64,000 bases of DNA, taken from contig JAQZDE010000063.1 of assembly GCA_037576195.1 (NCBI GenBank), positions 86,001 to 150,000 of the forward strand, read 5' to 3'. Shown in pieces: positions 5,841 through 26,480 of the stretch. This DNA is from Phytoseiulus persimilis. Taxonomy: Eukaryota > Arthropoda > Arachnida > Mesostigmata > Phytoseiidae. The position numbers were made by a program, and so were the translations under genes. Within the stretch, counting starts at the first letter, position 1. Each line of letters begins with the position of its first letter. The notes under the pieces are model-generated. The model searched no databases. It was not told the origin of the DNA and saw nothing but the letters and a program-made list of their open reading frames with translations.

Positions 5841-6201
5841 TTTCCTGCTCACGTTCCTTTCAACGCATTTCCGCCTATCTGAGCGATGTTCGATCTCCTC
5901 GGATCTTCATCTATGCTCGCCTTTTTCGAATCCTCTGCTCTGGATCGGTGACCGTTTGGATCGCCTAGAAACCTGTCGAGAGAATGGGAGTTTGCGGCTG
6001 CCCGCCTTCCGCAAATGTTCAGAACTTTTCCCGCTCTCATTAGAACTTTGACGATTCGCTCGGAATCTTGATTCGAAGCCTGATCCGTGGAACCATGCCG
6101 AAGGGGCTGTCGACGACAAGAGAATGTTTTGAGTAAACTTCCACCAAGAGGAAATCAGCTCACGTCCTGAGCGATCTCTGGTTTCCTTCCGTTTGTTGAG
6201 T

Positions 6202-6290
6202 GTTAAATGTAGAACAAGAAAAAAGAAAGCCGCTGACGCTGCGCCGCCTCTACTACGTCTCGACGGTGGTGATACCCTGTGTTTCGTTTC
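6202..6290 (+). repeat. Decayed fourth copy of the miR-1 repeat unit
   Basis: The 60-70 bp after 6229 (starting GCCGCTGACGC, through GCGCCGCCTCT and GATACC.TGTGTTTCGT) match the 3' flank of the first miR-1 hairpin at 6598-6660 closely. The bases just before it (TTAAATGTAGAACAAG) look like a mutated version of the mature arm TGGAATGTAAAGAAG. No matching 5' arm is seen, so it probably no longer folds. It indicates that the unit, flank included, was duplicated at least once more. Confidence 0.5.
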
Positions 6291-6534
6291 AGTCAGATTC
6301 CGAAGCGGTCCGAGAGTCGTTGTGCCTCATCTTATCCGATGTTTTCGATTCGACCCTCGACATTGGAACTCGCCATATCTACTTTCTCCCGTCCGAGCAT
6401 TGAAGTGTTGCGCAATATTCGTTCTCCTCGACGCCAAACGACCGAGCGGCCTCACAGCAGGATCAGGGTCAATCCCGACGGAGTATCGATCGCTCTGAGG
6501 CCGCTAACGGATTCATCTGATCGACTGGAGGTGT

Positions 6535-6608
6535 GGTGTCTGTAGTACTTCTTTGCGATCCCATATGACGATCAAATTATGGAATGTAAAGAAGATGCCG
6601 CCGACGCC
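6535..6608 (+). ncRNA. mir-1: miR-1 precursor hairpin, copy 1
   Basis: The 3' arm (mature from 6580) starts TGGAATGTAAAGAAG, identical to the first 15 bases of animal miR-1, then diverges (ATGCCGC instead of TATGGAG). The 5' arm CTTCTTT at 6550-6557 pairs with AAAGAAG. CCATA pairs with TATGG across a loop of about 12 nt. A lower stem is formed by GGTGTC (6535-6540) with GACGCC (6603-6608). The seed GGAATGT is intact, so targets should overlap those of canonical miR-1; the changed 3' end may weaken 3' pairing. miR-1 is the ancient muscle miRNA. The fold was judged by eye. Confidence 0.8.
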
Positions 6609-6907
6609 ATGCGCCGCCTCTGCCGCTACGCGTGGACGGCGATACCATGTGTTTCGTCTAGGTTCCAACCTTGGCGTTCTGGAGAACATCTTCAGCTCAC
6701 GATTCTGTATGGTGTCTATTGGCCCAATTGACTGCCATACATCAGGAGTCCCTCTGTCCGAATGTGGATAAATTTTTTGATGTTCATATTCTTCCGCTCC
6801 AATCCAAACCACGCTACCAGTGCATCCACGCTTCGCTCGCTTGCTCCCCAGTCTGTGAGAGCACCAACGAAGATGCACCGAAGCTCGCGATCGAGTCGAA
6901 GCGCGGC

Positions 6908-6974
6908 GTTTGCAGTACTTTTTTGCCATCCCATATGAAGAAAGTTTTATGGAATGTAAAAAAGTACGTGAAAC
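6908..6974 (+). ncRNA. mir-1: miR-1 precursor hairpin, copy 2 (variant)
   Basis: The mature arm begins at 6950 with TGGAATGTAAAAAAGTACG. It keeps the seed GGAATGT but carries G-to-A at position 12 relative to canonical miR-1. The opposite arm carries the matching change (TACTTTTTT instead of TACTTCTTT), so the stem stays paired. Outside this, GTAC/GTAC and GTTT/AAAC continue the helix around a 3x3 internal loop. The compensatory change argues that the hairpin has been under selection. It lies 370 bp after copy 1 and 219 bp before copy 3, on the same strand, so one primary transcript is likely. Confidence 0.8.
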
Positions 6975-7118
6975 TCCCATCTCCACCCAGACAGAAAATC
7001 GCTCTGTGAGACCGACCCGTGTGTTCTTGTGGTGCGACACCGGAACATCCCTGCGTTGAATTCGACGATACGGGGTCAGCCGTCCGAGCTTCCACCGGTC
7101 CGCTCTCCGTCTGGTCAG

Positions 7119-7200
7119 AGCGTGGCGTTTGCAGTACTTCTTTGCTATCCCATATTGGTAATGAATTATGGAATGTAAAGAAGTATGGAGGACCCACGCT
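7119..7200 (+). ncRNA. mir-1: miR-1 precursor hairpin, copy 3 (canonical mature)
   Basis: Bases 7169-7190 match, as I remember it, the complete 22-nt miR-1-3p of flies: TGGAATGTAAAGAAG then TATGGAG. The 5' arm GTACTTCTTT pairs with AAAGAAGTAT. CCATA/TATGG closes the apical part. AGCGTGG (7119-7125) pairs with the CCACGCT ending at 7200 as a basal stem, giving a precursor of about 80 nt with the mature strand on the 3' arm, as in other animals. In most bilaterians miR-1 is muscle-specific and often clustered with miR-133; no miR-133-like sequence was found in this window. Confidence 0.95.
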
Positions 7201-7931
7201 CCGAACATCCAACGTTGTCCCCGCAATCGGCTGTCCTCGATATGGCGTGACTCGAGATGGTCGAGGCACGCTCTCCGAGGCGAATCGTGCAGTTCGTACA
7301 GTTCACGATATCTCGCTTGCGTGGAACCTCATGAGATCACTCCGGCTGAACGAGGTGAGTGGTTCAAAGAGGCACATGTTGTCGCTTTCCAAAGAAAGTT
7401 TGTGATCGTATTCCGTCGACATCTGGTAGTGCTCTAGCGTTGTTTTGCTTTCGACTGAATCGGCGAAAACTCTTATCTTCCCGCCAGTCAGTCTCCGTTG
7501 AGAAAAACGTCTCGCCTCTGTTCGAGTCATGCATTCTACGAATAAGCTCATATCGAGTCTCATCTGCGGGTTGCTGTTCAACGCTCGACGACGACAAACT
7601 CTAGAGTGGATCTCTGAAGCGTTCGATGGAGCATTCGCAAAAACGAGCCGAAAACTCCGGCTTTCCGCTCTTCCCTCTTTATTCGTCCGTTCCCGTGACG
7701 CTCTGCAGGGGTTGTTCGAACACGATCGATCGACCTGGCATTCGGTTTCACTCTCGGCCTCAAATGAGTGGATGCTTCCTCTTGAGTCTAGATCGGGCTA
7801 TCTAGCCGTTCTCCCAGGTTTCCAAAGCTGGAGGCGTCGAAGATGAAGTTGGGAGGGCTCGCTTGCGTCCCGAACGAACGTCTTGGCAGCATGCCAGGCT
7901 GTCATCAACGAGCGAAAGGTTCGTTTGTAGT
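7201..7931. other. Spacer between miR-1 cluster and Sidestep-like gene
   Basis: No recognisable exon or repeat. It probably holds the 3' UTR of the minus-strand Ig gene and the end of the miR-1 primary transcript, which would converge here. Confidence 0.3.
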
Positions 7932-16100: not shown

Positions 16101-19100
16101 AGCAGAACGCCTTCTTTGCTGGGTTCTATCAATTGGAGGAAATGGCTCGGCAGGAGGGTCTGGATCACGGACAAGAGTTCCGCTCGCTGATTCACTTCCT
16201 CCACCAACAGGGGAAACTGTTTTGTTTCGGATGTTTGCACTCGTTTCAATTGGATTCGCAATGGGACGGAGTCATCATTTTGCGACCCAACTGGTTTCTA
16301 CTGCGCTGCATAGAACTCTTCTGTGTGAGTCAGCGGAGGATTCTTGAAAGGAATCACGACCACGATTGAACCCTTTTTGCATGTTGCTCATCCGCCGCCC
16401 CCTAAGCAATCAATTCTCCGTTTCCCCAGACCTCGAACAGAAACGCCCTTATGAAGCTGAGCAAATCTTATCTGGCGGATCAGGTTTGGCCACGGTTTGA
16501 CGACCAGTCGGGAACCTTGGTCTCCATTTTGGATGCCCTCGATATCCTCGTCGAAAGTTACTACGAACCTCAATCGCGTAAAACACAAGAGCATAAAGAG
16601 AGATGTTTGGCTGTTTTTCCATGGGTAGCTTTGAGACCAATGGCTCCCTTGCGGTGAGTGTCCCTTCCGGCTCCCACAACCATTGAGAGTCTGGTCTTAA
16701 GAGACCTGGCGAGGACCCACTCTGCAACGTCCCCTTACCCACAACCTGGATATTGATCTTGTTGAGTAAGAATCGTCCTCGCTCTGATTTTGCAGGTTCC
16801 AGACACAGTGCTCCCTGGACACTATGGTCTTCTTTGTAGATATGGGATATTCACTGACAGAGAGCGTTTTCCACCGATTTTCATGCAGATTACTCCGATG
16901 GACGGATTGGAGGGAATGTGATATTTATAAAAACTCACTGATTATTCCTCTCGATGTCGACCACACTCTGTTGGTTCGAATCGCCCAGAATCGCCTCATC
17001 CACATTATGGTAATCCGATCGGGTTTCCACTCGGGACAACTTGTTCAGCAATATTTGCACGTTCTCGCGCAGCTCTCAATCTGCCATGACTTCAACTCAC
17101 TGAGAGATTCCAGCTTCTATCAAAAAATCGATTGAGGTTTACTTTCAGGTTCAAAGAGTTCAACACGGTCGTGAAGACTGGCTAGCATCTTCACCACCAC
17201 AGCCCTCTATTTGTGAAAAAGTCCGACATTTGGTGCAAGCCGAGCTGGAATCATTGAGGCAGTCTTGGTATGCCAGGTTGACGTTCACGCTCGTGGTAGC
17301 CTGTCCTTGCGACGGGGTGGCCTGCGCGCTGCACGGATTGCGGCCCTGCAAAACCTGTTTGCATTTCCTCTCTCTCGAAGAGTGCATCGCCAAGAAAGTT
17401 GTTCATTGTGATTTCCGGTGAGTCCTATTGGTCTGGGAAGCCGTTTCTGTGAACCCACGACTGGACCCTGAGCTTTCAAGCATTTTTCATCCATATATTC
17501 ATTATATACTATGTATGTATTGGATGCGTGCAAAAGTTCTGAGCGCTAAACTTTGACAGCTGATAACTCCGCACCCAGGAGTCGCAGAGAGATGATGAAT
17601 TACTAAAAATACGCGGAATTCAGTCAGCTTTCAGATTGATTTTGTTCTGATCCAACGAACGGCCTGCCAAGTCCGACGCTTTTGCTGAAAGGGTCGAAAA
17701 TCGCAAAGTCACGACTTTTCGATTCCGGCGAAACTAAGATTATGACACCCTGCTTTCTCTTCGGACTCGCAATGTTTGTCTAAATTTAGGCCGTTTAAGT
17801 GAAAATTTGAGCGATTCGACCTCCGCCCAGCGGAGTTATTGGCCTCGAAAGTTCCGATTTTCAGCCCTCTCTATCTATGTTGAGTGGATAGAAAAAATAT
17901 GGGCTGCTAGAAAATGCTCCCTCTTCACCCAAAGACGAGCCAATTTAAGATGCCGCATAGCACATCTTGTAGCTGGGCTCCAAGCTTCAAAAACATGTCA
18001 TCTGATCCAATCTTTTGCTCGCCACCCATAGCTTCGAATTGCGAGCCGGATCACTAACTTCAGTTCCGCTGGCTGAGCCGTCTCATGGCTGCCACCGGCA
18101 CGAATTTCCCTGGAAACTCTTGGAAAGCCTGAAATTGGATCATATGACATGTTTTCGGAACCTCGAACCTGGCTATAAGATGTGCTATGCAGTATATCAG
18201 ATTAGCTCGTTTCTTCGAGGAGACGAAGCATTTTTGGAGAAGGCCCATATCTTTCCTATTCACTCAGCACAGATCGGGAGGGCTCAAAATGGAAACTTTC
18301 GAAGCCGATATCTCCCTTGGCAGCGGCCAAATCGCTCAATTTTTCTTTCGAAACAGCTTAATTCTCGACGAGCCTCATGATTCCGAAGAGAAAGGGGGTC
18401 ATAATCTCAGTTTCGACGGAACCGGAATTTTCGGCCTCTTCAGTGAAATCGTCAATGTTGGCAGACCGTTTGTTGAATCAGAACGGAATCTTCTGAAAGT
18501 TGACTGAAGTCCGCGTATTTTTAGCATTCAATAATCTTTCAGCGACCTCTGGGAGCGGAGTTATGAGCTGTCAAAGTTCAGCGCTCAGAACTTTTGCAAG
18601 CACCCAATTGCTTAAGAGAACGGGCATCACTCTCAGCATGCGGAGTTCACAATGGAAATATCCAGCTAATCAGGGTATGATTCCTTGGTTCCCAGGCGCG
18701 TAGAAACGGATTTCATTCGGGATCATTTTCCTCACTCCGTTATCCATGGTATGGCTTCGGGAGGAAACCGCAGAAGCTCACTTGGCTTTGCCTGGCCGTC
18801 GTCTCAGCTTACACTGAGCTCCGACAACCTGTGGGATGAGCCCGACTGGACGAAGGAAGCTGCACGTCTCGTCGGCTCGGATTGGGTGGCTCTCGCGAAA
18901 CGGCTAGGTCTGAACTGATTCAGCTGAATACGACGCAGAAACTATGGAGATGATCTTACACTCTCAGAAGGAGCAAAATCATAAAGCTAAGATTCCGTTC
19001 TCGGATCGGCAGGTTACACCGATCGCGAGCTGAGTCGTTTCTCAGAAGAACCTGCCGCAGGTCTCGCTCTCCTACGTGACTGGAGAGAGTCCAACGGAGC

Positions 19101-20484: not shown

Positions 20485-20601
20485 CAAGTTCGCTCCAGGC
20501 GCAGGACTCCGTTCTCAGGGCTTGCATTCAAAGTTCGGGATCGTCGGAATCCTTCTGAGTAACAATCTACTCCACAGTAGAGCAAATCGAGGAGATACTA
20601 T

Positions 20602-20886
20602 ATTAAACGAAGTTTGTTGTTTTTTTGGAGTTCATTCGACATGCCTGAGCGTGGGCGAGGTGATTTTCGAGGTTATGCTCGTGCCGGGATACATGGCGAG
20701 ATTACTGGACTTCATTCTCTCAGCTGAGCACTGTTAATTCCGATATATCTGCAGGCATGACTTCCGAGACCATTTCCATGATCGTCTTCGGAGCCGTGCG
20801 ATGTCACGTGGACCGAGTCTCTCCTAACGGAACTCTACATCGAAAATTGTTCGAGTTGAGAATCCGTGAGGTGGCAGCGGAATAAA
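20602..20886 (+). terminator. Candidate poly(A) signals of the Roco gene
   Basis: ATTAAA at 20602-20607 and AATAAA at 20881-20886 lie 120-400 bp after the Roco stop codon. On the minus strand AATAAA (20938-20933) could serve SZRD1, so the two convergent genes may share or overlap their 3' ends. Confidence 0.35.
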
Positions 20887-23116: not shown

Positions 23117-23347
23117 GGGTAGGGTGTGCGTCGAATGCGCCGCAATGGTCCGAGTTGGATTCAGCGCGGCGCCATTTTTAAAGGGCCCGGGCTGGTCCAT
23201 GGTGGATGTATCGAGGCGCGATTTGAGGTAGAACGTGGGGTGCTGCGCTGCAGCGCGTTTCTCGGGCTAGCCTTGTGAGAAGTGATATGATTCGTGGGGG
23301 GAAACGTCATCCAGGGAGGAAATGAGCGGCATGAGGTGGGCCTGAGG
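23117..23347 (+). repeat. Dispersed repeat, copy A (inverted relative to copy B)
   Basis: Shares long stretches with the reverse complement of 26261-26480: GCGCCG.AATGGTCC, CAGCGCGGCGCCATTTT, GATATGATTCGTG, CGTCATCCAGGGAG and GAGGTGGGC. Identity is roughly 70-75% by eye over 230 bp. No coding function is evident, although the shared segment stays partly open in one frame. Confidence 0.75.
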
Positions 23348-26260: not shown

Positions 26261-26480
26261 CTGAGGAAGAGCCCACCTCAAATCCTGCCTTCAATCTACT
26301 CCCTGGATGACGTCCCCCCTCACGAATCATATCACGACCCACAGGGCTAGCCAGCGAAACGTTCCGTCTCAAATCGCAACCCAATGCATCCAACAGAGAC
26401 AAGCCCGCGCAATTTGAAAATGGCGCCGCGCTGCATCCAGTCTGGACCATTCCGGCGCAGTTGACACCCCTTCCCCCACA
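26261..26480 (-). repeat. Dispersed repeat, copy B (inverted relative to copy A)
   Basis: Reverse-complement copy of 23117-23347. On the minus strand it encodes an open stretch including MVQTGCSAAPFSNCAGLS; copy A has MVRVGFSAAPFLKGPGWS at the equivalent place. The pair could be ends of one 3.4-kb element or two independent insertions. Confidence 0.75.

Follow-up and report, generated by a model that had tools for sequence, protein, structure and literature searches.

A local triplet of mir-1-family hairpins in Phytoseiulus persimilis: a canonical copy, a compensated copy and a copy that appears to be chimeric

The window (the whole stretch of DNA that was analysed: 64,000 nucleotides of Phytoseiulus persimilis, assembly GCA_037576195.1, contig JAQZDE010000063.1, positions 86,001 to 150,000 of the forward strand) has a GC content of about 0.50 to 0.56 in 4-kb windows. 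Of its 106 stop-to-stop frames of at least 120 aa, 10 were scanned against Pfam: seven gave a match at E up to 0.001, six of them above the curated cut-off. Neurobeachin is found in two pieces, one with the BEACH domain (E 7e-125), whose nearest solved structures are neurobeachin and LRBA, the other with DUF4704 and a lectin-like domain. The other matched frames correspond to a tubulin-tyrosine ligase-family protein, a member of the organic solute transporter alpha family, a cyclic-nucleotide-binding protein and a Neuralized-domain protein. The seventh match (TIR_2) is under its cut-off. These protein matches would fit animal DNA. No tRNA genes were found in the window.

Two groups of inverted repeats are present. 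Nested repeats at 17519-17635 and 18492-18608 (117-nt arms, 86% complementarity, 856 nt apart) enclose inner pairs at 17911-18024/18121-18234 (114 nt) and 17753-17796/18351-18394 (44 nt), both with 73-74% complementarity. The whole, 17519-18608, resembles a foldback element or a miniature transposable element. Inverted-repeat pairs at 23130-23334 and 26283-26465 (107 and 79 nt, 78% and 80%) lie about 3 kb apart and are possibly the ends of a mobile element.

The feature described here is a real local triplet of mir-1-family hairpins on the + strand: a canonical copy, a compensated one and one that appears to be chimeric. Copy 1 (6527-6625) has a long lower stem, copy 2 lies at 6900-6982 and copy 3, the canonical one, at 7115-7204. 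Copy 1 to copy 2 spacing is 370; copies 2 and 3 are separated by 219 bp. All three carry the seed GGAAUGU (mature nt 2-8) in the 3′ arm. TGGAATGT occurs on the + strand at 6580, 6950 and 7169 and at no other + site of the 64-kb window; on the − strand it has two sites, 28327 and 62792. A preliminary description, made from the letters of this DNA, had announced three same-strand, seed-bearing hairpins within about 670 bases, and TGGAATGT begins at exactly the three positions that it gave. The hairpins also lie where its interval placed them, but related sequence reaches further, to about 6219.

A search of the whole window with Rfam at E up to 2 gave six matches, five of them mir-1 (three + and two −, all in this cluster). 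The sixth is a weak GA-cis match at 20587-20671. The gathering score of the mir-1 family (RF00103) is 45.6 bits and is passed by copy 3 only (7123-7197, +, 48.2 bits). Copy 2 (6903-6978, +, 40.2 bits) and copy 1 (core only, 6548-6594, +, 37.8 bits) are under the gathering score; they are assigned as mir-1 paralogues on sequence homology to copy 3, not by the Rfam cut-off. Against copy 3, blastn gives E 6e-12 for copy 1 and E 1e-14 for copy 2. An antisense reading of the cluster was rejected: the minus-strand Rfam scores are lower for all three copies (27.9, 25.4 and 20.9 bits). No mir-133 was found in the 64 kb by Rfam at E up to 2; a site outside the window is possible.

A similarity due to chance or to an inverted-repeat artefact is scarcely credible. 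The 11-mer GGAATGTAAAG, allowing at most one mismatch, is found three times for 0.76 expected, and at least three matches are reached in 4 of 100 shuffles, so that this motif alone is weak evidence and leaves some room for chance. Covariance scores, folds and the inter-copy homology (62 to 76 nt, 78-84% identity, blastn E 2e-11 or lower) argue strongly the other way.

Folded alone, each copy forms one hairpin. Folding energies are −39.4 kcal/mol for copy 1, −24.1 for copy 2 and −39.9 for copy 3, with z −4.97, −3.82 and −6.73, respectively (200 dinucleotide shuffles each); shuffles as good as the real hairpin number 0/200, 1/200 and 0/200. In all three copies the hairpin is stable, with the mature arm paired, whether the copy is folded alone or pairs are held to 120 nt. 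Copy 2 also folds well on its minus strand (6903-6978): −25.8 kcal/mol, with a z of −5.86, better than the −3.82 of the sense stretch, which was slightly longer.

The unconstrained fold of 6500-7220 (−245.4 kcal/mol, single-structure energies being poor guides for a 721-nt RNA) pairs the copy 1 3p arm with the copy 3 5′ arm, and the reverse, and copy 2 retains its own hairpin. The cross-paired arms are 6548-6594 (copy 1) and 7135-7185 (copy 3). With pairs held to 120 nt, the same stretch gives −227.4 kcal/mol and the three local hairpins. Hairpins fold during transcription. The predicted pairing between copies 1 and 3 nevertheless speaks against assuming local folding; single hairpins, which had been proposed as a check of the triplet, are thus obtained for the three copies taken alone but not for copies 1 and 3 in the long unconstrained fold. 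One further hairpin lies between copies 1 and 2 (6700-6755, 56 nt, −18.1 kcal/mol, TGTATGG/CCATACA arms); it has no Rfam family match at E up to 2.

The predicted mature 3p arms are TGGAATGTAAAGAAGATGCCGC (copy 1, 6580-6601), TGGAATGTAAAAAAGTACGTGA (copy 2, 6950-6971) and TGGAATGTAAAGAAGTATGGAG (copy 3, 7169-7190), all on the + strand. The copy 3 22-mer is the canonical miR-1 form. It is printed in 30 papers; among the 20 matches listed, titles concern mostly insects, a crustacean or mites. It had no match in viral contigs, and a 21-base pattern had none in bacterial or archaeal genome contigs. The first 20 bases of the copy 1 and copy 2 mature arms gave no literature text match, in a search with most subscription papers, figures and supplements outside its scope.

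Copy 2 shares 17/22 bases with copy 3. Nucleotide 12 is changed from G to A with a matching change in the 5′ arm, a paired double change from C-G (copy 3) to U-A (copy 2), and the change at nt 18 turns a G-U pair into G-C. The preliminary description was right about a substitution accompanied by an opposite-arm change; the mature arms differ, however, at five positions (nt 12, 18, 20, 21, 22) and not at one. Stem covariation, for which 260/500 shuffles reach the observed value, is uninformative, since two sequences only are compared. Copy 1 is identical to copy 3 to nt 15 and then different at 7/7 bases (15/22 the same). Its miR-1-like part consists of the 5′ arm and 3p nt 1-15; the 3′ side of its lower stem would be captured flank, as argued below.

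The CNNC motif is a Drosha cue. In copies 1 and 3 it starts 16 nt past the end of the mature arm; in copy 2 it is absent at 16-18. This says little, because the GC-rich flank of copy 1 holds nine CNNC in 30 nt.

The DNA that follows copy 1 is itself repeated. An upstream flank (6219-6442, +) is homologous to a second flank copy (6588-6812, +) that is joined to the copy 1 3p arm, as found by alignments, blastn and a repeat scan. The upstream flank would represent the left part, in its first copy, of a duplicated unit of about 370 bp. Local alignment of the DNA from 6219 with that from about 6588 onward has a score of 79, for which 0/300 dinucleotide shuffles are as good. Aligned with 6589-6812, the segment 6219-6442 scores 72 (z 11.0, 500 mononucleotide shuffles; 0/490 genomic segments as good). 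The best-supported part is 6219-6287 versus 6588-6657 (blastn E 6e-6, search of the window). Taken alone, 6219-6300 has z 9.1; 6301-6442 is weaker (z 3.9; 0/483 genomic segments as good). Identity over ungapped columns drops along the unit: 0.83, 0.75, 0.67, 0.63. The left end (6219-6300, 60/72 ungapped columns) is better conserved than the rest of the unit.

The flank offset is 370 and equals the spacing between copies 1 and 2. Among offsets of 50-999 over 5900-7600, only 219, 370 and 589 (their sum) have a 40-nt window with at least 26 matches. Ungapped direct repeats of at least 40 nt (seed 12) form two families only in the 64 kb: the three hairpins, with spacings 370 and 219, and the flank pair (6240-6287 / 6610-6657), with spacing 370. 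Homology breaks inside the 3p arm of copy 1. The proposed duplication junction, placed from these alignments at 6588-6598 (+), would coincide with an AAAGAAG-like microhomology that covers nt 9 to about 19 of the copy 1 3p arm; the breakpoint is placeable only to about nt 9-19 of that arm, and a junction inside the 3p arm is likely rather than proven.

Homology is detected only in parts of the unit. Left of the junction, 6140-6218 versus 6510-6588 shows none (z 0.0; 243/485 genomic segments as good). The unit middle, 6443-6515 versus 6813-6885, shows none either (z −0.8; 375/487 genomic segments align as well). The DNA downstream of copy 1 and that downstream of copy 2 have a weak residual signal (z 2.0; 26/486 as good). 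A continuous 370-bp duplication is therefore not demonstrated throughout, because the middle is without homology and 6301-6442 reaches z 3.9 only.

These gaps leave a place for a different account, in which drift or small indels produced the copy 1 tail, and the flanking 370-bp repeat had an origin of its own or formerly contained a fourth mir-1 copy, now wholly decayed. It is unlikely. Allowing a one-base deletion (ATG after GAAG), copy 1 can indeed be aligned to copy 3 beyond nt 15, and the middle of the unit is without homology. The common offset of 370 in flank and hairpin speaks against this account. The expected site of a fourth copy, 6140-6218, is unlike the copy 1 hairpin (z 0.0), while the adjoining 6219-6300 has z 9.1; a decayed copy at that site was rejected as unsupported. 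The copy 1 tail is thus read as captured flank and not as drift, because flank and hairpin have a common offset of 370. The divergence of copy 1 after nt 15 had been correctly noticed in the preliminary description, but it was taken there for ordinary divergence, and the 370 offset points instead to a junction.

The cluster of three mir-1 genes is thus probably the product of local tandem duplication, with an event of about 370 bp that broke inside a 3p arm and spared copy 2. One duplication event would have separated copies 2 and 3. The 219-bp duplication may be older than the 370-bp one; this is guessed from the fact that its detectable flank is shorter. In the other event, which would have duplicated about 370 bp, the DNA would have broken near 6219, at an A/G-rich stretch, and within the 3p arm carried by the ancestor of copy 2. 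Such an event would leave copy 2 whole and make copy 1 miR-1 in its 5′ arm, its loop and the first 15 nt of its 3p arm, after which upstream-derived flank follows. The captured flank would by chance have been complementary to the lower 5′ stem, so that the copy 1 hairpin survived.

Folds of the lower stem bear on this last step. Copy 1 with its own 36-nt flank gives −39.5 kcal/mol. Of 3000 random window flanks, 0.4% do as well; when the GC-rich flank of this copy is shuffled instead, 5.5% of the 3000 shuffles are as good. With swapped flanks, the copy 1 5′ side gives −40.4 kcal/mol (flank of copy 3), −36.8 (flank of copy 2) and −36.1 (6219-type flank). The copy 3 5′ side gives −42.4 with the copy 1 flank versus −40.9 with its own. 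A proxy for the state at birth (copy 2 5′ side and 6219-type flank) gives −32.8, equalled by 3.7% of 1500 random flanks. The lower stem of copy 2 is unremarkable: 59% of 3000 random flanks are as good. Co-adaptation of the two sides of the copy 1 stem was considered and is not supported by the flank swaps, the copy 3 flank being slightly better in place. From these swap and shuffle folds, the captured flank would have been complementary by luck, and later co-adaptation is unsupported.

Between copies 1 and 2, the arms are identical at 39/42 positions and the loop at 3/9. The proposed duplicated flank is identical at 152/201 ungapped columns, plus 50 gap columns. One-sided Fisher tests of arms against flank give p 0.007 ungapped and p 1e-5 with gaps counted, on the understanding that arm boundaries were set after the folds were seen and that the flank figure omits the unit middle. 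Arm conservation above that of the flank suggests constraint.

Could copy 1 be a decaying pseudogene, truncated at birth and giving little or no miRNA, with its seed kept through short time only? Its 3′ arm is altered past nt 15 and its Rfam match is limited to the core (37.8 bits), as a pseudogene would predict. The flanks of the same proposed duplication have meanwhile come down to the identity given above and the loop has diverged, yet the arms have not; the hairpin, moreover, is stable, with the energy and z already reported. A pseudogene is accordingly considered improbable.

Gene conversion instead of selection could also keep the arms alike, and the triplet would then chiefly add dosage of one miR-1. 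The tandem copies are close by and the seeds are identical in 3/3. Loop identity in the three copy pairs is, however, 3, 4 and 4 of 9, and conversion tracts that span the hairpin would have homogenised the loops. The tails differ in all three copies as well. Gene conversion is disfavoured as the cause, because the loops have diverged between conserved arms, and it is rated as quite unlikely, below the pseudogene.

Function of copies 1 and 2 may be proposed from their conservation. The three copies would be transcribed together, cut by Drosha and Dicer and loaded as 3p arms, and all three would repress through the miR-1 seed. Copies 1 and 2 would differ in 3′ supplementary pairing. Selection may retain copy 1. 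That copy 1 is a functional, seed-preserving chimera, with a breakpoint in the mature arm, a flank that gave the tail and the lower stem, and selection that kept it, is possible and is put forward tentatively, with less confidence than the tandem origin of the cluster.

miR-1 is an ancient muscle microRNA and one of the most conserved of animal microRNAs. The triplet has the seed, the 3p mature arm and the hairpin in common with the mir-1 family (RF00103); it differs in having three copies in about 670 bp and in the copy 1 tail, which is unrelated. The family is known; its local expansion here is new. In the text parts of PMC8136511, two mir-1 members are given for scorpions, pseudoscorpions, two spiders and horseshoe crabs, so that there is precedent for chelicerates with several miR-1 genes. 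Arachnopulmonates and horseshoe crabs, like the triplet, have more than one mir-1 gene (PMC8136511; survey base PMC4987109, text parts); their copies are taken there as evidence of an ancient genome duplication that these groups share (PMC8136511). The text parts of these two papers, figures being outside the comparison, do not describe a local mir-1 triplet. miR-1 is stated to be single-copy in Drosophila in a passage of PMC8061306. Passages of PMC6902594, PMC8966896 and PMC12220506 hold no statement on mir-1 copy number.

Tandem duplication is described, in the relevant passage of PMC1388199, as a frequent mechanism of microRNA cluster growth. The mir-1/mir-133 cluster (PMC1388199) has mir-1 clustered as here, but consists there of two members of two families; the triplet has three mir-1 and no mir-133 detected in the window. 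The chelicerate microRNA survey PMC4987109 includes Metaseiulus occidentalis; its text names this species and Ixodes scapularis with five multicopy families and reports tandem duplication of mir-2 and mir-3791. The whole-word count of mir-1 in its main text is 0. Local tandem duplication within one microRNA family is thus a known likeness to the triplet, but in families other than mir-1, and for these the text parts describe no duplication junction inside a mature arm. Among the matches listed, no title or abstract opening names a local mir-1 triplet; figures and supplements lie outside this statement, and such a triplet may be in print.

The claim that miR-1 forms a local tandem triplet here, with its seeds conserved and its 3′ ends divergent, is supported, and extra dosage or broader targeting, as first suggested, may follow from it. 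The triplet is a modest, testable example of microRNA family growth. Its canonical, compensated and apparently chimeric copies provide a natural experiment on the weight of sequence beyond the seed. They also probe whether one step, a duplication junction inside a mature arm, can be enough to give a new microRNA isoform. If the chimera is true, a muscle microRNA would have gained, in one step, a form with the same seed and new 3′ supplementary pairing.
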